A stretch of 64,000 nucleotides of DNA from Blattabacterium cuenoti (GTDB taxonomy: Bacteria > Bacteroidota > Bacteroidia > Flavobacteriales > Blattabacteriaceae): NCBI RefSeq assembly GCF_014251575.1, contig NZ_CP059191.1, forward strand, positions 434,001-498,000. Reading direction: 5' to 3'. Of this stretch, positions 11,586 through 54,996 are shown one piece after another (positions within the stretch are counted from its first letter, which is position 1; each line of letters opens with the position of its first letter). The position numbers and the translations under genes are program-made. Below the pieces are notes generated by a model. The model was not told the origin of the DNA. It worked only from the letters and a program-made list of their open reading frames with translations, and searched no databases.

Positions 11586-11984
11586 TTAAATATCCTCAAA
11601 ATTAATATTTGTGAAATCCTTTATTTCTGATGTTTTTTTTTGAACCTCTTTTACCTCTTGACTTTGATTATATGTTGTATGATTTTTAAAATCTTTCTGA
11701 TGACGTTCAGAAATTACTTCTCTCCCTTTTTCATTAATAATAAACCGAATCATATCATCAAGTATGCTTTGGAATTTTGAAAAATCCTCCTTATACAAAT
11801 AGATTTTGTGTTTTTTATAAGTTACTTCTCCTGTTTCAGAAAAACTTTTCTTACTTTCAGTGATGGTCAAATAATAATCGCCAGCTCTTGTTTCTCTCGC
11901 ATCAAAAAAATATGTTCGGCTACCAGTTTTTAGAGTCCGTGAACAAATTTCATTTCTTTCTTTGATATTTTCTTTTTCGTCCAT
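11586..11984 (-). CDS. PUR-family DNA/RNA-binding protein (DUF3276)
   Basis: A 132-aa protein of the Bacteroidetes PUR-alpha-like family. The core, about residues 15-95, has RTLKTGSRTYFFDARETRAG and the strand KKHKIYLYKEDFSKF, followed by a helix (FQSILDDMIRFI) in the PUR repeat layout. The C-terminal 40 residues are polar and probably disordered. Members bind single-stranded nucleic acid; the spirochaete relative BpuR regulates transcription and translation. The role in this organism is not known. A -7 box lies 29 bp upstream, so it probably begins the transcript with kdsC. Confidence 0.85.
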   Translation of the reverse strand: MDEKENIKERNEICSRTLKTGSRTYFFDARETRAGDYYLTITESKKSFSETGEVTYKKHKIYLYKEDFSKFQSILDDMIRFIINEKGREVISERHQKDFKNHTTYNQSQEVKEVQKKTSEIKDFTNINFEDI

Positions 11985-15810: not shown

Positions 15811-15901
15811 AAAAACTAGAAGAGGAAAAATAAAAAAAAAAACTTATGGAAATCTTCGTCCAAATCCAAGAAACGCTAGAAAAAAGAAAAAAAATAATTA
15901 A
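15794..15901 (+). CDS. rpsTHX: 30S ribosomal protein THX (bTHX / S31-like)
   Basis: A 35-codon gene coding for a very basic peptide that starts MGKGDKKTRRGKI and continues with KTYGNLRPNPRNARKKKK. This is the Bacteroidetes/Thermus THX pattern (MGKGDKKT(R/K)RGKI, then a GNxRP word), a small subunit protein lodged in the 30S head between 16S rRNA helices. It overlaps the last 17 bp of coaE in a different frame, so it is probably translated from the nusB-yajC-coaE mRNA. It contains an 11-A run (15832-15842). Its stop overlaps by 4 bp the stop of the convergent protease gene. At this size it is easily missed. Confidence 0.9.
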   Translation: MGKGDKKTRRGKIKKKTYGNLRPNPRNARKKKKNN

Positions 15902-16602
15902 AGTTGTTCATCTTTTTTACTTGCACTTGTGAAAAAAGATAAGAAATATATCAGTTGAGATAAACTGCCTAAAGCAGAAACCACATAAGTCATAGCAGCC
16001 CAATTTAAAGATTCTTTCGCTTTATTGTATTCTTGATAATTAACTACATTTTTTTTTCTCATCCAAGTTAAGGCCCTGTTACTTGCATCAAATTCTATTG
16101 GCAAAGTTATAAAAGAAAAAAGAAAAACAAAAAAAAATAATCCTATTCCTAGTTTAAGAAGAAAAGAATCTTTTCCTCCTGAACTGTAAAAAATTGTTAA
16201 TCCAGACACTATAGCTAGATTAGTAAATTTGGAACTAAAATTCAAAATAGACACTAAATGATTCCGTATTTTCAACAAATTATAACCCAACTTATGTTGT
16301 AATGCATGACCACATTCATGAGCAGCTACCGCAACAGAAGCTGCAGATCTACCATTGTAAACTTTTTCGCTTAAATTTATTGTTTTGTTTAGAGGATTAT
16401 AATGATCTGTCATCTCTCCTTCAACTGAAAGAACATAAACATCCGTAATTCCATTATCTTTTAACATTTTTTCCGCTACTTCTTTTCCACTCATATAAGA
16501 ATGCAAATGAAATTTAGAATATTCTCTAAATTTATTTTTTAAGATTGTATTAACAATAACACTTACTAAAAAAGTAGTGCCAATAATGAAATAGTAAGTC
16601 AT
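15898..16602 (-). CDS. Membrane zinc metallopeptidase, YugP family
   Basis: A 234-aa membrane protein with an N-terminal helix, the metalloprotease motif HECGH (His95, Glu96, His99) and two or three more hydrophobic segments (about 125-165 and 205-225). The pattern SAASVAVAAHECGHALQ and the later EFDASNRAL word, carrying the third metal ligand, identify the PF04298/YugP family, not HtpX. The substrate is not known; membrane protein quality control is a reasonable guess. Its own promoter is suggested by TATTTTTG at 16620-16627 on the reverse strand. Confidence 0.9.
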   Translation of the reverse strand: MTYYFIIGTTFLVSVIVNTILKNKFREYSKFHLHSYMSGKEVAEKMLKDNGITDVYVLSVEGEMTDHYNPLNKTINLSEKVYNGRSAASVAVAAHECGHALQHKLGYNLLKIRNHLVSILNFSSKFTNLAIVSGLTIFYSSGGKDSFLLKLGIGLFFFVFLFSFITLPIEFDASNRALTWMRKKNVVNYQEYNKAKESLNWAAMTYVVSALGSLSQLIYFLSFFTSASKKDEQL

Positions 16603-28170: not shown

Positions 28171-29826
28171 ATTGGGATAGAATCACATCTACATTTTATT
28201 GAGAGAATTATAGAGGAAGATATAAAAAATGGATTTCCTGTTGAAAAAATAAGATTTCGTTTTCCTCCTGAACCAAATGGATATCTCCATATTGGACATG
28301 TAAAAGCTATATGCCTCAATTTTGAGTTGGGAAAAAAATACAAATCACCAGTCAATTTAAGATTTGATGATACTAATCCTATAGTAGAAAATAGGAATTT
28401 TATAGAATCCATAAAAAAAGACATTCTTTTTTTAGGGTTCAAATGGGAGATAGAAAGTTATGCTTCAGATCATTTCTATCAACTTTATAAATGGGCTGTG
28501 AGATTAATTAAGAAAAATAAAGCTTATGTAGATGATCAATCTCAAAAAATCATCCAATCTCAAAGAAAAAATACTTTTGAAACTGGAATCAATAGTGATT
28601 ATAGAAACAGGTCTATAGATGAAAATTTGTATTTGTTCGAAAGAATGAAAAATGGATTCTTTGAGGAAGGATCTTGCGTTTTAAGAGCTAAAATTAATAT
28701 GAGTTCTCCAAATATGAACATGCGAGATCCGATTATGTATAGAATTTTGCAAAAAAAACATCATAGAACTGGATCCCAATGGTGTATTTATCCTACTTAC
28801 GATTGGACTCATGGTCAATGTGATTACATTGAACAAATATCACATTCTTTATGTTCATTAGAATTTGAAAATAGACGACCATTATATAATTGGTATTTAG
28901 ATCAAATTTGTGATCATGAAAAAATAAGACCTAAACAAATAGAGTTTTCAAGATTAAATTTAAGTCATACTATAACTAGCAAAAGAAAAATTCAATATTT
29001 AATTGAAAAAAAAATTATCCAATCTTGGGATGATCCACGTATATTAACAATATCTGGATTACGTCGTAAAGGATACACTTCAACCGCTTTAAAAAATTTT
29101 GTTCATAAAATAGGAATTACAAAAAGAAATAATATCATTGATATATCTCTTTTAGAATTTTGGATTAGAGAACATTTAAATAAAATAGCCCCTAGAGTAA
29201 TGGTAGTATTTCATCCAATTAAATTAATTATTGACAATTATTCCATGAATACTACTGAATGGATAGAATCCGAAAATAATCCGGAAAATCCTAATTTTGG
29301 GAATAGAAAAGTACCCTTTTCTAAATTTTTATATATTGAAAAAGACGATTTTTTAGAAAAAAAAAGAAAAAATTTCTTTCGTCTTAGTATTGGAAAAGAA
29401 GTAAGACTTAAAAATGCTTACATTATAAAGGCTAATTCCATAATCAAAAATTATAAAGGAGAAATCAAAGAAATACACTGCACTTACGACCCAAAAAGCA
29501 AGTCTGGAAACAAAGAAAAAATAGAAGAAAAAGGAAGAACAAAAAGCACTTTACACTGGGTATCCATAAAACATTCTTTTCCCATAGAAATTAATTTGTA
29601 TAATCCTCTTTTTTTGAAAAGAAATCCGGACATAGATTTTCATACATGCATCAACCCAAAATCAAAAGATAAAATCATAGGTTATGCAGAACCTTCTTTA
29701 AAAAAAGCGAAAAAAGGAGACCATTTTCAGTTCCAAAGAATTGGTTATTTTTATGTAGAAGATTCTACCATTAATAAAATTATTTTCAATAAAACAGCAT
29801 ACATAAAAAATCAATGGAAAAAATAA
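28171..29826 (+). CDS. glnS: Glutaminyl-tRNA synthetase with non-AUG (ATT) start
   Basis: Class I synthetase charging tRNA-Gln. From ATT 28171 the protein is 551 aa, matching the usual 550-555. Essential N-terminal sequence lies before any in-frame ATG/GTG/TTG: LHFIERIIEEDIKNG, RFRFPPEPNGYLHIGHVKA with the HIGH motif, and CLNFELG. The first TTG (28327) would remove all of it. An in-frame TAA at 28162 excludes a longer form. Further on: RFDDTNP, the tRNA-Gln acceptor-binding part, and the C-terminal beta-barrel domains. The KMSKS-like loop reads LSHTITSKRK. A non-AUG start like that of infC is the simplest explanation; the start itself is inference. Confidence 0.9.
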   Translation: MGIESHLHFIERIIEEDIKNGFPVEKIRFRFPPEPNGYLHIGHVKAICLNFELGKKYKSPVNLRFDDTNPIVENRNFIESIKKDILFLGFKWEIESYASDHFYQLYKWAVRLIKKNKAYVDDQSQKIIQSQRKNTFETGINSDYRNRSIDENLYLFERMKNGFFEEGSCVLRAKINMSSPNMNMRDPIMYRILQKKHHRTGSQWCIYPTYDWTHGQCDYIEQISHSLCSLEFENRRPLYNWYLDQICDHEKIRPKQIEFSRLNLSHTITSKRKIQYLIEKKIIQSWDDPRILTISGLRRKGYTSTALKNFVHKIGITKRNNIIDISLLEFWIREHLNKIAPRVMVVFHPIKLIIDNYSMNTTEWIESENNPENPNFGNRKVPFSKFLYIEKDDFLEKKRKNFFRLSIGKEVRLKNAYIIKANSIIKNYKGEIKEIHCTYDPKSKSGNKEKIEEKGRTKSTLHWVSIKHSFPIEINLYNPLFLKRNPDIDFHTCINPKSKDKIIGYAEPSLKKAKKGDHFQFQRIGYFYVEDSTINKIIFNKTAYIKNQWKK

Positions 29827-40655: not shown

Positions 40656-40664
40656 ATCATTTAT

Positions 40665-40850
40665 TTATAAAGAAAACAATCTCTTAATTAAAAAAATGAA
40701 AAAAACATCCACTCCATATAAAAATATGGATAGAAATATAGAAAATATAGAGACTATCATTGTTGTTTCTTGTAAATCGTTCCACTTAGTCCATGTAATA
40801 CGATGAAAAAATTCATTATAAATTTCCAAAAAAAAATTATTTTCTTTCAT
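40665..40850 (-). CDS. secE: Preprotein translocase subunit SecE
   Basis: Small essential clamp protein of SecYEG. From ATG 40850 it has 61 aa: an amphipathic helix with NEFFHRITWTKWNDLQETT (the conserved W-P/K-region of SecE) and one membrane helix (IVSIFSIFLSIFLYGVDVFFIFLI). An in-frame ATG at 40886 would add 12 residues. That codon begins 2 bp beyond the mature 3' end of tRNA-Trp, so the shorter start is preferred. Conserved position before nusG. Confidence 0.9.
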   Translation of the reverse strand: MKENNFFLEIYNEFFHRITWTKWNDLQETTMIVSIFSIFLSIFLYGVDVFFIFLIKRLFSL

Positions 40851-40887
40851 ATCGTTTATATACGATTTTTTCTTTTCAAAAATCATG

Positions 40888-42454: not shown

Positions 42455-42528
42455 AGCCGGTAGAGGGATTCGAACCCACGACCCCGAGATTACAAATCAC
42501 GTGCTCTGACCAACTGAGCTACACCGGC
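42455..42528 (-). tRNA. tRNA-Thr (UGU)
   Basis: Acceptor GCCGGTG/TACCGGC, anticodon loop TTTGTAA (anticodon TGT), T arm GGTTCGAATCC. The anticodon stem CGTGA/TCTCG has a T-T mismatch at 29-41. First tRNA of the cluster, just downstream of the strong promoter at 42569-42599. Confidence 0.94.
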
Positions 42529-42612: not shown

Positions 42613-43251
42613 TCACAAAATTTTTGTATTTTTTATTCTGTTCTTAAATATAAAAAATGAAATAACACCAATAAATATAGACATATCAGACACATTAAAA
42701 ACCGGTTTAAAAAATTGAAAGTGAATCCCTCCAAAAAAAGGAATCCAGTCAGGAAAATGAGTATCTATTATAGGAAAATAAAACATATCTACTACACATC
42801 CTTTCATAAAGGATGCATATCCACCACCATTAAATTTCATTTTAGATATTCCTAAATAAGGAATCCACTTATGATGTTCTTTACTATAAACTGTCCCTGT
42901 GTTAAATAATAATCCATATAAAGCACTATCTAAAAAATTTCCTATAGCTCCCGATAAAATCAAACCAGTAGGAATAGTTAAATAACTAGAAGATCCTTTT
43001 TTTACATTTTTATAAAGAAAAAGGGATATTAAACAAACTAAAAAAAAACGAAAAAAACTTAATAATATTTTTCCATAATATCCAGTCCCAAGATAAAAAC
43101 CATAAGCCATTCCAGGATTTTCCACAAAAAAAATCCAAAAAAAAGGAAATATGAATACTCCACTACCCAATTCAAAATGGGTCTTGATATAAATTTTTAA
43201 AATTTGATCTATTAATAAAATAGAAAAAACAACAAAAAAAATTTTTTTCAA
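42613..43251 (-). CDS. lspA: Lipoprotein signal peptidase (signal peptidase II)
   Basis: Inner-membrane aspartyl protease that cleaves prolipoproteins at the lipobox Cys. 212 aa, four hydrophobic segments. Seen: FFVENPGMAYGF, GAIGNFLDSALYG with the first catalytic Asp, VVDMFYFP, and FNVSDMSIFIG with the second catalytic Asp. It is longer than E. coli LspA (164 aa), with an insertion around residues 120-150, as in other Bacteroidetes. Its substrates here include BamD, LptE and the orphan lipoprotein at 51615. Follows the DksA-like gene by 1 bp. Confidence 0.94.
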   Translation of the reverse strand: MKKIFFVVFSILLIDQILKIYIKTHFELGSGVFIFPFFWIFFVENPGMAYGFYLGTGYYGKILLSFFRFFLVCLISLFLYKNVKKGSSSYLTIPTGLILSGAIGNFLDSALYGLLFNTGTVYSKEHHKWIPYLGISKMKFNGGGYASFMKGCVVDMFYFPIIDTHFPDWIPFFGGIHFQFFKPVFNVSDMSIFIGVISFFIFKNRIKNTKIL

Positions 43252-43252
43252 A

Positions 43253-43648
43253 TTATTTATTTCTTTTTTCTACAAGTCTTTTTCCTTCTATACTTAAGGT
43301 AGTATGAGGAACAGCCATAAGACGTCCTTTAGGAATTAATTCTTTTGTTATCCTACAAATTCCATAATCTTGACTTTCCACTCTAATCAAAGCAGAATTT
43401 AAACTTTTTATAAATTTTTGTAAGTGTTCCATAATTTGTGCCTTCTGTTCCTTACTCAAAGTTTCCGATCCTTCCTCAAAAGCTTTAAAAATAGGAGAAG
43501 TGTCATCTGTTCCATTATCCTGACTATTAGAAAAAGAATCTTTAAGAATCAATAAATCTTTCTTGGCTTTTTCTAATTTTTCAAGTATAAGTTTACGAAA
43601 CTCTTTTCTCTCTTCCATAGAATACCTTTTTTTTCCCTTTTTTTCCAT
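43253..43648 (-). CDS. DksA/TraR-like protein without zinc-finger cysteines
   Basis: A 131-aa protein with a long N-terminal coiled-coil (about residues 8-95) and the C-terminal word YGICRITKELIPKGRLMAVPH, resembling the DksA/TraR zinc finger. Only one of the four zinc cysteines remains, as in Bacteroidetes relatives. DksA family members bind the secondary channel of RNA polymerase and act with ppGpp. The acidic residues at the coiled-coil tip look compatible but cannot be checked. It sits 3 bp after ileS and 1 bp before lspA, a conserved Flavobacteria neighbourhood. Confidence 0.85.
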   Translation of the reverse strand: MEKKGKKRYSMEERKEFRKLILEKLEKAKKDLLILKDSFSNSQDNGTDDTSPIFKAFEEGSETLSKEQKAQIMEHLQKFIKSLNSALIRVESQDYGICRITKELIPKGRLMAVPHTTLSIEGKRLVEKRNK

Positions 43649-49863: not shown

Positions 49864-49948
49864 ACCTGGGTGGTGGAATTGGTAGACACACAGGACTTAA
49901 AATCCTGTGATCATTGCGATCGTACGGGTTCAAATCCCGTCCCGGGTA
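49864..49948 (+). tRNA. tRNA-Leu (UAA)
   Basis: Class II tRNA with a long variable arm (GATCATTGCGATC). Acceptor ACCTGGG/CCCGGGT, anticodon stem CAGGA/TCCTG with loop CTTAAAA (anticodon TAA), T arm GGTTCAAATCC. No encoded CCA. Its last 19 bases are antisense to the end of guaB. Reads UUR, a MiaA/MiaB target type. Confidence 0.96.
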
Positions 49949-51405
49949 TTTAGATAGTAATTTGGAGTTTCTTTTGTAATTCTGACACTGTGTGGATGAT
50001 TTTCTTTTAATCCTGAATTAGTTATTCTTACAAATTTTCCTTTTTCCATTAACTCTGTAATGGATGAAACTCCACAATAACCCATACCAGAACGCAATCC
50101 TCCACAAATTTGATAAATTGTATCTTTCATTTTCCCTTTGTAAGGGACTATAGCTTCTATTCCTTCTGGAACAGATTTTTCACTAAATTGAAAATAACGA
50201 TCTTTACTTCCTCTTTTCATAGCAATTAAAGACCCCATTCCAACATAAGTTTTAAATTTTCTTCCTTGAAAAATCACTTCCTCGCCAGGAGCTTCATCTG
50301 TTCCTGCAAATAAACTACCAATCATAACAGAACTAGCTCCTGCAGCAATAGCTTTTACCACGTCTCCTGAATATCTAATCCCCCCATCAGAAATCACATG
50401 AACATTTCTTTTCTTGGCGTATTCATACACATCATTAATAGCTGTTATTTGAGGCATTCCCACTCCAGATACTACTCTTGTCGTACAAATAGAACCAGAT
50501 CCTATTCCTACTTTTAAAACAGTAGAACCAGCATCTATCAAATCTTTAGCTCCTTCCTTTGTGACTACATTCCCTGCTAGTAATGAAATTCCTGGAAAAA
50601 AAGAACGGATTAATTTAATAACCTGTAATATTCTAGAAGAATGACCATGAGCTGAATCTATAGCTATGAGATCTGCTCCCACTTTGACTAAAGATTCCAC
50701 TCTATCTAAAGTGTGTTTATCTATCCCTACAGCAGCTCCTACACGAAGACGTCCTCTAGAATCTTTGCATGCATTAGGGTGCTTAATTAAATTATCAATA
50801 TCCCTAATTGTGATTAATCCTACCAATTTATTATTTTCATCTACAATAGGTAATTTTTCTATTCTCTCTTTTAATAAAATATTCTTTGCTTTTTCCAGAG
50901 TAATATTTTTTTTAGAAGTAATCAAGTTTTCTCTTGTCATTACTTCCTCTACTAAAGAATCCAAATTTGTACGATATTTGATATCTCTTCTCGTAATAAT
51001 TCCTACTAATGAATAATCTTTTTCTATAACAGGAAGTCCAGATATTTTATATCTTTTCATAAGATATTGAGCATGTTTTAGTGTAGAATCTCTGGAAAGA
51101 GTTATAGGATCATCTATCATTCCACTTTCACTTCTTTTTACCCTGTAAACTTCTTCTGATTGATTCTTTATACTCATGTTTTTATGAATAATACCTATTC
51201 CTCCTTCCCTAGCTATAGATATAGCTAAAGAAGATTCAGTCACTGTATCCATGGCAGCACTCAATATGGGGATGTTTAGAGAAATGTCAGGTGTCAAATA
51301 AGTTTTAAGAGAGACTTCTGATGGAAGAATTGAAGAAAAGGAGGGAACAAGCAAAACATCATCAAAAGTTAGAGCCTCTTTTAAAATCTTTTTATTTAAA
51401 GACAT
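49930..51405 (-). CDS. guaB: Inosine-5'-monophosphate dehydrogenase
   Basis: Rate-limiting step of GMP synthesis: IMP to XMP with NAD+. 491 aa, full length. Seen: N-terminal [12 protein letters not shown], the paired CBS domains (about residues 95-205), the catalytic loop [13 protein letters not shown] with active-site Cys, [17 protein letters not shown], and the flap with [10 protein letters not shown]. Its stop codon lies inside the antisense tRNA-Leu gene. The upstream gap of 209 bp to the lipoprotein gene carries a -7 candidate TAAGTTTG (51484-51491, reverse). Confidence 0.97.
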
Positions 51406-51539: not shown

Positions 51540-51572
51540 TAATGATATATTTTTTCATTCCAAATTTTTATA

Positions 51573-51580
51573 TAAATTTG
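51573..51580 (+). promoter_or_regulatory. Putative -7 promoter element of the orphan lipoprotein gene
   Basis: TAAATTTG matches TAnnTTTG, with a likely leader of about 28 nt before ATG 51615. The -33 element is not clear. Confidence 0.45.
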
Positions 51581-51614
51581 CCCAGAATATGTAATAATTG
51601 AAATACTATTGATT

Positions 51615-51884
51615 ATGATGAAAAAATTAAGAATTACTGTTACTACGATCCTATTGGCGATATTTTTGTTTACTATCAGTTGTAATAACAAAAATAAAAA
51701 TGAAAATCCCTCTACTACAACAGAAGAGGAAAAAACAGCTAATAATAATCAAACAGATTCCACTAATACAACAAACACTCCTCCTGCAACTTCTAGTGAG
51801 GAATCCTCAAAAAATAATAATGAGGAAAACGGAACAACAAAAGAAAAAATAACTACTGAAGAAAACGAAAAAAATAATAAATAA
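51615..51884 (+). CDS. Orphan low-complexity lipoprotein
   Basis: About 89 aa. A clear lipoprotein signal (MKKLRITVTTILLAIFLFTISC, written here only as a signal ending in TISC) is followed by a tail made almost wholly of Asn, Thr, Ser, Glu and Lys, with one PPAT word and no predicted fold. I do not recognise a family. It has its own promoter box and a strong terminator, so it is expressed as a single gene. It stands alone on the forward strand between long reverse operons. ATG 51615 or 51618 may start it. A role as a periplasmic spacer or membrane-anchored tail is only a guess. Confidence 0.7.
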   Translation: MMKKLRITVTTILLAIFLFTISCNNKNKNENPSTTTEEEKTANNNQTDSTNTTNTPPATSSEESSKNNNEENGTTKEKITTEENEKNNK

Positions 51885-51885
51885 T

Positions 51886-51921
51886 TAGGATTGATTTTAA
51901 AAATAGGATTGATTTTAAAAA
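51886..51921 (+). repeat. Two perfect tandem copies of an 18-bp unit
   Basis: TAGGATTGATTTTAAAAA occurs at 51886-51903 and again, identical, at 51904-51921, directly after the lipoprotein stop. The second copy runs into the A-tract of the terminator. Recent slipped-strand duplication is the likely origin. Confidence 0.9.
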
Positions 51922-51967
51922 AAAGCAAAAAAGAGAAACCCATCGTTCGCTCTTTTTTGCTTTTCCA
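51917..51967. terminator. Strong bidirectional intrinsic terminator
   Basis: AAAAGCAAAAAAGAG (51921-51935) pairs perfectly over 15 bp with CTCTTTTTTGCTTTT (51950-51964), loop of 14 bases, with A and T runs on the two sides. It ends the lipoprotein transcript on one side and rplS on the other. Confidence 0.88.
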
Positions 51968-51969
51968 CT

Positions 51970-52314
51970 TCAACTTTTAACTCTTGCTTTTTTTCCCTTA
52001 AGAAATCTAAAATAATAAATTTTAGATCTACGAACTTTCCCTTTTTTATTAACTTCTATTTTTTGTATGTTTGGTTGATTGAAAATAAATATACGTTCTA
52101 TTCCTACTCCAATACTTATTTTTCGAATAGTGAATGTTTTGGTTAATCCTTTTCCTTGTTTTTTTATAACTACACCTTTAAAAGATTGGATTCTTTTTTT
52201 TTCTCCTTCTTTAATTTCAAAAAAAACAGTAATAGTATCTCCGGAATTAAATAATGGAAAATTATTTATAGGAATAAATTTATTTTCTGTGTATCTAATA
52301 AAATTTTGTAACAT
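51970..52314 (-). CDS. rplS: 50S ribosomal protein L19
   Basis: 114 aa. Protein at the 30S-50S interface. Seen: FNSGDTITVFFEIKEGEKKRIQSFKGVVIKKQG, TFTIRKISIGVGIERIF and GKVRRSKIYYFRFLKGKKAR, all canonical. It is the last gene of the long reverse run beginning with nifS or sdhC, and 6 bp after glmM, an unusual neighbour for L19. Confidence 0.96.
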   Translation of the reverse strand: MLQNFIRYTENKFIPINNFPLFNSGDTITVFFEIKEGEKKRIQSFKGVVIKKQGKGLTKTFTIRKISIGVGIERIFIFNQPNIQKIEVNKKGKVRRSKIYYFRFLKGKKARVKS

Positions 52315-53763: not shown

Positions 53764-54996
53764 TTATTCAAATTCTAATACTTTGATGATAGGAATTTTA
53801 TTAATAATAAATAAAATAGGGAAAAATATAGTCACAAAACAAATCAAAATAATAGATAAATTGATAATGAATAGATGGCTTATATTAATACAAATTGGAA
53901 CAAAATCTACAAAGTATTGTATTTTATTTAGTAATACTAAATGAAATTTTTTTTGCAGTATCAATAAGGTAATTCCTATAGTATTTCCTATGATTAATGA
54001 TGGAATAAATATTTGCAGAACATAAAACAGAAATATTTTGTGTATAACTTTATTTTGAGCTCCTAAAGTTTTTAAAATACCTATAGTTCTGATTCTTTCC
54101 AAAAGAAGTATTAGAATAAATACAATCATATTTATAACTAATGATATAAAAACAATAAAACTAATAACAAGTATATTCGTATCAAATATGTTTATCCATT
54201 CTATAATATCACGATTATTTTGATCATAAATAGTTTTAACTAAAAAATTGTTAGGTATTTTTTTTAAAATTTTTTCCTTTATATTTTCTTTGTTATAAGG
54301 AAAATAAGACAGAAAAATTTCAAATTTTTCTGATAAATCTTTTTTACATCCATAAATCTGTTGAATCGATTTTATATTTCCAATAATGTATAGATCATCA
54401 AATTCTGTAATTCCTGTTTCGTATAAACCAGAAACTCTAAATTTTTTAGATATAATAGTAGGATCGCCATTTTTTTTAAAAAAAAGGAAATCTATTTTCA
54501 CATTTGATCCAATATTTAATCCTAATGATAAGGATATTTTTTTGGATAAAATAATGTTTTTATTACAATCATTATTTTTTTTTTTGTTACAAAAATTTCC
54601 ATCAATTAAAAAATATTTAAAAAAAATGGGATTATAATCTTCATATAATCCTTTATATATATATCTTCCTGTTTTATTATCCGTTCCAATAATTATATCT
54701 TTTTCAACAATTTTATAAATTTTTTTTACATAATTGTAATTGATATATTTTTTTTGAAAAAAAAGTTTTTCAGGAAAAATTGAATTTATATTTTCTATAA
54801 CAATTTGTCCTCTAACATTTAACAATTTATCTTTTATAATTTCTTTGAATCCATATCCTATAGAAAAAGTCAAAATAGCAATAATTAAACCGAAAGTTAT
54901 TGTTATTTGTGTTATTATAACTATTGTTCTAAGAGTTCTATTTTTTCTACAATCTTTCCAAACTGTTTTTTTAGAGAAAAACCATTCAAAATTCAA
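53764..54996 (-). CDS. FtsX/LolCE-type ABC transporter permease
   Basis: A 410-aa membrane protein. One helix near the N-terminus (IITQITITFGLIIAILTF) precedes a periplasmic domain of about 200 residues. Three C-terminal helices follow (around 275-300, 325-350, 375-400), with the LERIRTIGILKTLGAQ word typical of the MacB/FtsX fold. The most likely role is lipoprotein release (LolC/LolE type), which fits the lipoproteins in the window, though cell-division FtsX relatives cannot be ruled out. No ATPase partner is nearby. Eight bp after dnaB. Confidence 0.82.
   Translation of the reverse strand: MNFEWFFSKKTVWKDCRKNRTLRTIVIITQITITFGLIIAILTFSIGYGFKEIIKDKLLNVRGQIVIENINSIFPEKLFFQKKYINYNYVKKIYKIVEKDIIIGTDNKTGRYIYKGLYEDYNPIFFKYFLIDGNFCNKKKNNDCNKNIILSKKISLSLGLNIGSNVKIDFLFFKKNGDPTIISKKFRVSGLYETGITEFDDLYIIGNIKSIQQIYGCKKDLSEKFEIFLSYFPYNKENIKEKILKKIPNNFLVKTIYDQNNRDIIEWINIFDTNILVISFIVFISLVINMIVFILILLLERIRTIGILKTLGAQNKVIHKIFLFYVLQIFIPSLIIGNTIGITLLILQKKFHLVLLNKIQYFVDFVPICINISHLFIINLSIILICFVTIFFPILFIINKIPIIKVLEFE

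Follow-up and report, generated by a model that had tools for sequence, protein, structure and literature searches.

In the Braun lipoprotein (Lpp), the mature part is a helical coiled coil that is linked to peptidoglycan by YkuD enzymes. LptM is likewise a small lipoprotein. HP0135 belongs to Helicobacter pylori, a member of another phylum than Blattabacterium; the Bacteroidetes surface lipoproteins come from a phylum that we take to be the one of Blattabacterium itself. According to the available part of PMC11768039, HP0135 has a role in envelope stability and is not linked to the murein sacculus. The accessible part of PMC5080379 gives the surface-export signal of Bacteroidetes lipoproteins (LES) as C-X-K-(D/E)2-X, or as a polar residue followed by D or E near the +1 Cys. 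Here we describe a small lipoprotein gene in a stretch of 64,000 nucleotides of Blattabacterium DNA (C1:434001-498000, called the window below) from a genome of 633,713 bases.

The gene, its neighbours and its distribution

The gene lies between two genes that we take, from their sequences, to be guaB and rplS.

51615-51884, plus strand: orphan lipoprotein gene, 89 aa; frame intact in 49 of 49 genomes, pN/pS 0.38 (20 sequences)
49930-51405, minus strand: IMP dehydrogenase gene guaB, the divergent neighbour; placed upstream by the pattern search in all 49 genomes
51970-52314, minus strand: rplS (ribosomal protein bL19), convergent neighbour; in the stretches of 18 of 18 relatives, and by pattern in 47 of 49 genomes

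The precursor consists of a signal peptide (residues 1-22), a presumed lipid-bearing Cys23 and a predicted disordered acidic tail (residues 24-89). Its N-terminus reads MMKKLRI, followed by a hydrophobic stretch and then (F)TISC. The general marks of a lipoprotein, a basic n-region, a hydrophobic stretch and a lipobox ending in Cys, are thus all found, and the Cys is present in 49/49 genomes. This confirmed the lipoprotein signal claimed in the preliminary description (signal ending in TISC), and the claim of an orphan, stand-alone gene was supported. The pattern search missed rplS next to the lipoprotein gene in two genomes, G032 and G036. The start region reads ATGATC in these two and ATGATG in the other 47; because the second codon is ATC there, translation must begin at the first ATG, at least in G032 and G036. 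The products range from 87 to 110 aa over the 49 genomes.

A profile search found one copy per genome in all 49 genomes of the genus, the window's own included, and a protein search found the gene in all 18 of the Blattabacterium relatives examined first. The preliminary description had named a frame broken in sister strains as grounds for giving up its reading; such breaks were looked for, and the frame was intact in 49/49. The frames were located by gene-specific patterns inside places taken from homology searches, and the two are not independent. In the table of the profile search, 48 of the 49 matches had no internal stop and that of G012 was listed with one TAA. Since the pattern-based reading gave an intact 93-aa frame in G012, we take this match to extend beyond the stop codon of the gene. 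The two remaining forward frames were open in none of the 49 genomes, and one reverse frame was open in 11. Pooled over 20 sequences, pN/pS was 0.13 in the signal and rose to 0.47 in the tail, and dN/dS of the whole gene was 0.09 to 0.26 in eight chosen pairs. Selection on the gene is purifying, and the pooled pN/pS of the tail indicates that it too is under constraint.

Outside the genus, the profile search gave no match at E 1e-4 in 166 other genomes of the order, which include a 0.3-Mb genome from the same family, and the protein search gave weak matches (E 0.0026 or worse). One locus in a metagenome-assembled genome (L032, E 2e-5) encodes a 105-aa protein with the lipobox region in common and the tail not; we judged it unrelated. 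Synteny was read at 23 rplS loci outside the genus, with about 1.5 kb on each side (two shorter) and with 40 other rplS matches outside the count. By pattern, 22 of these loci had no small lipoprotein frame, and the remaining one has an unlike frame. That no family had been recognised in the preliminary description was borne out: among the 25 matches listed per library (of 26 and 36), no Pfam or NCBIfam family scored above its curated cut-off with the window protein. Against the PDB, a profile search yielded a single weak match (E 0.052). The accessible parts of the Blattabacterium literature on the proteome, RNA-seq, gene loss and lipid A, LPS and the outer membrane, and comparative genomics held no pointer to the gene. 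For literature naming Blattabacterium together with lipoprotein, the available part of PMC6039017 likewise bore no sign of it.

Promoter, leader and downstream sequence

The flanks of the gene hold four features.

51540-51614, plus strand: conserved promoter and 5' leader, mean identity 0.93 to 18 relatives
51573-51580, plus strand: -7 box TAAATTTG, consensus TAnnTTTG, present in 49 of 49 genomes
51886-51921, plus strand: 18-bp unit in two perfect tandem copies, 3' of the stop codon, private to this genome
51921-51964, either strand: perfect 15-bp hairpin with a 14-nt loop, between the convergent genes

In the alignment with the 18 relatives, the 75 bases of promoter and leader ranked first among 30 gene-upstream regions of the window; window averages in the same alignment were 0.67 for noncoding and 0.80 for coding bases. 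The ranking covers the window and uses a gene list hand-picked from open frames, and of the regions ranked next, the one before 28327 turned out to be coding and the gap 40656-40886 may hold secE. An AT-rich upstream part, ATATATTTTTTCATT, lies at 51545-51559. Behind it, a 16-nt core, TTTTTATATAAATTTG (51565-51580), is identical in 49/49 genomes by alignment and by recount. The core ends in the -7 box, which confirmed the claim that the gene has a promoter box of its own. The distance from box to ATG is 34 nt in 31 genomes and 28 to 49 nt across all 49.

The -7 element of the Bacteroidetes primary sigma factor was thus found upstream of the gene in every genome. The -33 TTTG element was absent from the 49-genome alignment, in which a T-rich block takes its place. 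In the part of PMC6847099 available, AT-rich motifs near -18 and -28 of F. johnsoniae promoters are described as standing out far more clearly than the -33 element, and leader length there is given as 33 nt on average. A generic sigma-70 scan found promoter-like sites no more often than chance (6 versus 7.2, sd 3.1). The promoter call is based on conservation and on agreement with the Bacteroidetes consensus.

The leader carries A at -3 in 48/49 genomes, at -13 in 49/49 and at -12 in 39/49, and T in 45/49 at -6, a fourth favourable position. According to an accessible portion of PMC6847099, A at -3, -12 and -13 is reported to favour translation in F. johnsoniae. The leader had no Rfam match at gathering score, and its folding was nothing unusual (z +1.05). 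The genome contains the string TTTATATAAATTTG a single time, so there is no exact sister promoter. Strong, steady expression of the gene is probable, as judged from the conserved promoter and leader. The high expression proposed in the preliminary description thereby gains support of an indirect kind, the promoter and leader being the best conserved of the 30 upstream regions.

Among 25 window genes examined, the TAnnTTTG box was kept in 18/18 relatives upstream of only four, the lipoprotein gene and three others:

11586-11984, minus strand: DUF3276 protein gene, box kept 18/18
15898-16602, minus strand: putative zinc metallopeptidase gene, box kept 18/18
42455-42528, minus strand: tRNA-Thr, box kept 18/18

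Elsewhere in the window, a glnS-like gene (28177-29826, plus strand), which Pfam assigns to the class I Glu/Gln tRNA synthetases, lacks an ATG, GTG or TTG ahead of its conserved N-terminal region. An in-frame ATA at 28177 is common to 15 of 18 aligned relatives (AAA in G002, AAT in G008 and ATC in G014), and the bases 5' of it diverge among relatives, as judged by eye. Possibly, this gene uses a conserved AUA start codon.

Downstream of the lipoprotein gene, we confirmed the perfect 2 × 18-bp tandem repeat, with copies at 51886-51903 and 51904-51921. Exact copies of the 18-mer number two in the window and one in G035, and the remaining 47 genomes have none. The interpretation as a fresh duplication therefore stands for this genome only, and the repeat is not part of a conserved unit. 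The duplication changes no protein, because it lies behind the stop codon.

Four perfect stems of at least 13 bp with loops of at most 20 nt occur in the 64-kb window and none in each of three mononucleotide shuffles. The hairpin at 51921-51964 folds on either strand, and on the minus strand, that of rplS, a longer T run follows the stem. Since rplS runs toward the lipoprotein gene and stops at 51970, the hairpin is common to both convergent genes and is probably a terminator for both. The notion of a self-contained unit with its own terminator had to be given up for this reason. A terminator scan, which allowed loops of 3-8 nt only, listed none at this site. In the 49 genomes, the longest perfect stem in the gap between the gene and rplS ranges from 6 to 27 pairs, with no wobble pairs counted and 150 nt taken where rplS was not found. 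A hairpin in this gap is usual across the genus and uneven in strength.

The tail and the envelope context

As had been claimed, the tail is made almost entirely of N, T, S, E and K (57 of 66 residues in the window protein). An AF2 model has a helix at residues 4-23 and no structure thereafter (mean pLDDT 57.3); the flexible tail suggested earlier fits this prediction. Over the 49 genomes, the tails average 8.4 basic and 15.1 acidic residues; 26 of them have a net charge of -7 and 16 one of -6, with values from -4 to -13 in the seven that remain. No tail contains F, W or Y, and V, L, I, M, F, W, Y and C together make up 1.9% of the tail on average. The tail begins with a near-invariant basic patch, CNNKxKN. 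Its last residue is K in 46/49, for which a guaB tree requires at least 3 changes.

In the window protein, acidic clusters followed by lysine recur (TEEEK, SEESSK and TEENEK). The sites kept in at least 80% of the 49 genomes are T36, E37, E38, E39 and K40; E62 and S65; E70; K76 and K78; and E82, E83, N84 and K86. The pattern [STN][ED][ED]x1-3K occurs 2.47 times per protein versus 0.51 in shuffles, a comparison in which the pattern was picked after seeing the sequence and the counts pool related proteins. We also tested six proteins singly. The window protein has 3 occurrences versus 0.40 in shuffles (p 0.005); p was 0.0105 in G057 and borderline in G031 (0.036) and G041 (0.051). The pattern was not unusual in G036 (1 versus 0.74 in shuffles) and was absent from the divergent tail of G016. 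With third codon positions 38-45% A in four tails, the N/T/K/E make-up may partly stem from compositional drift, although the first two positions are more A/C-biased and conserved sites are numerous. The tails form a natural series across the genus, one whose sequence seems freer to vary than its disorder, length and net charge.

Two window genes bear on the processing and release of lipoproteins.

42613-43251, minus strand: lspA, encoding signal peptidase II, which is required for cleavage of the signal
53764-54996, minus strand: LolC/E-like permease (lipoprotein release), TIGR02212 E 1.8e-31

Lgt is encoded in 21/21 genus genomes searched, and LspA was matched in the same number, interrupted in G002. 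There, lspA appears as two overlapping pieces with a TAA inside (G002:C1:459117-459700), and the lipoprotein gene is intact. A DksA/TraR-type zinc-finger gene lies beside lspA in the window (43253-43648, minus strand); it had no tblastn match in the stretches of 8 of 18 relatives.

Other envelope functions are kept less evenly. LpxC was matched in 37/49 genomes and had no match in 12, which probably reflects repeated loss of lipid A synthesis across the genus. The LolC/E-like permease, which scores 109.5 bits against TIGR02212, below the cut-off of 362.45, had no match in 13/49 genomes and is broken in 3, and it has the lowest mean identity among the window genes (0.59). Seven genomes lack both LpxC and the LolC-like permease in intact form. 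An OmpA domain was matched in 17 of 21 genomes and in 4 it was not. LolA had no match over the cut-off in 49 genomes, with one weak match below it (G047), and the Bacteroides control was matched; LolA may be truly missing or too divergent. The available portion of PMC6039017 reports a lolD pseudogene in two Blattabacterium strains, which fits this picture. No YkuD L,D-transpeptidase was matched in 21 genus genomes; the control matched 6 of 14 named genomes and not its one Bacteroides, which leaves the reach of the profile in this phylum unproven.

We placed the absences of LpxC and of the LolC-like permease on a tree of guaB (up to 600 bases; 24 of 46 inner branches well supported). On the best tree, LpxC requires at least 8 changes, LolC at least 7 and the lipoprotein none. 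With unlabelled rows removed, each loss group requires 5 changes, of which 4 are forced by well-supported branches. The lipoprotein thus outlasts LpxC, the LolC-like permease and the OmpA domain, and is never lost in 49 genomes.

Proposed role, alternatives and known systems

We infer a small, highly expressed and probably abundant lipoprotein, lipidated and disordered in the cell, that would serve without catalysis as a polyampholyte brush or spacer anchored on the periplasmic face of the envelope. We give this reading about an even chance. The precursor would leave the cytoplasm through Sec, receive its lipid at Cys23 from Lgt and be cleaved by LspA, as the signal and the presence of both enzymes suggest. 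The mature product would then be a lipid-anchored chain of 64-87 residues predicted not to fold, which could hold distance and charge between membrane and wall; the acidic clusters might act as repeated docking points for an envelope partner. A structural envelope role is suggested by the retention of the chain where lipid A synthesis, the release permease and the OmpA domain are not retained. A much reduced symbiont genome is not expected to keep a lineage-only gene without need. The presence of this gene in 49/49 genomes, while LpxC and the LolC-like permease seem to have been lost repeatedly, points to an envelope need peculiar to this symbiosis. The gene thus offers a small, concrete target for finding what the envelope of an intracellular bacterium cannot do without.

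The periplasmic side is held with moderate confidence, because the surface-export signal of the phylum was found in none of the 49 proteins: D or E occurs at +2 to +6 in 0/49 and at +7 in 4/49, and lysine is at +4 in 46/49. The surface location offered in the preliminary description is therefore not supported. Should the lipoprotein nevertheless be flipped to the outside of the outer membrane, its acidic chain could coat the symbiont in the host vacuole as a shield, for example against cationic host peptides. Such a role would suit a hydrophilic, acidic tail nearly without hydrophobic residues and the retention of the protein in each of the 12 genomes that lack an LpxC match and presumably make no lipid A. 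Surface-exposed lipoproteins are, moreover, widespread in Bacteroidetes, as stated in the accessible part of PMC5080379. However, the tail hardly differs in genomes without LpxC (73.8 versus 71.6 residues; charge -6.58 versus -6.81), and with the export signal missing we consider the shield unlikely. In lineages where Lol transport is lost, if it is lost, the lipoprotein may stay in the inner membrane.

The clustering of conserved sites goes beyond the need of a pure spacer and would be explained if the acidic clusters bound a folded envelope partner, such as a barrel-assembly or secretion part, with the protein acting as an LptM-like adaptor or assembly factor. However, the neighbours guaB and rplS offer no adjacent partner, the motif is missing from the divergent G016 tail, and a role in LPS assembly only is improbable for a protein that stays in the 12 genomes without an LpxC match. 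We regard this as an unlikely explanation.

In a bolder form of the spacer reading, the Blattabacterium envelope would have this protein as its main structural lipoprotein, a genus-born disordered brush that replaced LPS, OmpA-type tethers and Lpp in spacing and charge. The gene would then never be lost because it took over the role of these repeatedly lost parts; we think this quite doubtful.

A Braun-type tether, with the C-terminal lysine bound to peptidoglycan in the manner of Lpp, would account for the final K in 46/49 products of a small lipoprotein gene. The 21 genomes gave no YkuD match (with the control silent in Bacteroides) and the modelled tail lacks a helix, which makes a tether highly improbable. 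That an A-rich, low-complexity stretch is open by chance and encodes no functional protein has next to no probability and is already contradicted: although A-rich DNA favours codons for N, T, K, E and S and one reverse frame is likewise open in 11/49, this frame is open in 49/49 despite its varying length and the other forward frames in 0/49, its pN/pS is 0.38 and its promoter core is identical in all 49 genomes.

The periplasmic spacer that we favour can be set beside the systems named at the outset. It is small and lipid-anchored like Lpp and has the C-terminal lysine of Lpp in 46/49 genomes, whereas no helix is predicted after the signal and no YkuD was matched in 21 genomes. With HP0135 the likeness, set up by description and not by sequence, is that of a small lipoprotein; according to the available part of PMC11768039, the mature part of HP0135 has 28 residues. 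The surface lipoproteins of Bacteroidetes, as described in the accessible part of PMC5080379, are also lipid-anchored but carry an export signal that was found here in 0/49. LptM is a possible analogue as a small helper lipoprotein; however, it acts on the LPS translocon, as given in the part of PMC10567701 available, and the present gene is kept where LpxC is unmatched. A small disordered lipoprotein is thus of a familiar kind, whereas a family confined to one genus, and its persistence there, seem to be new.
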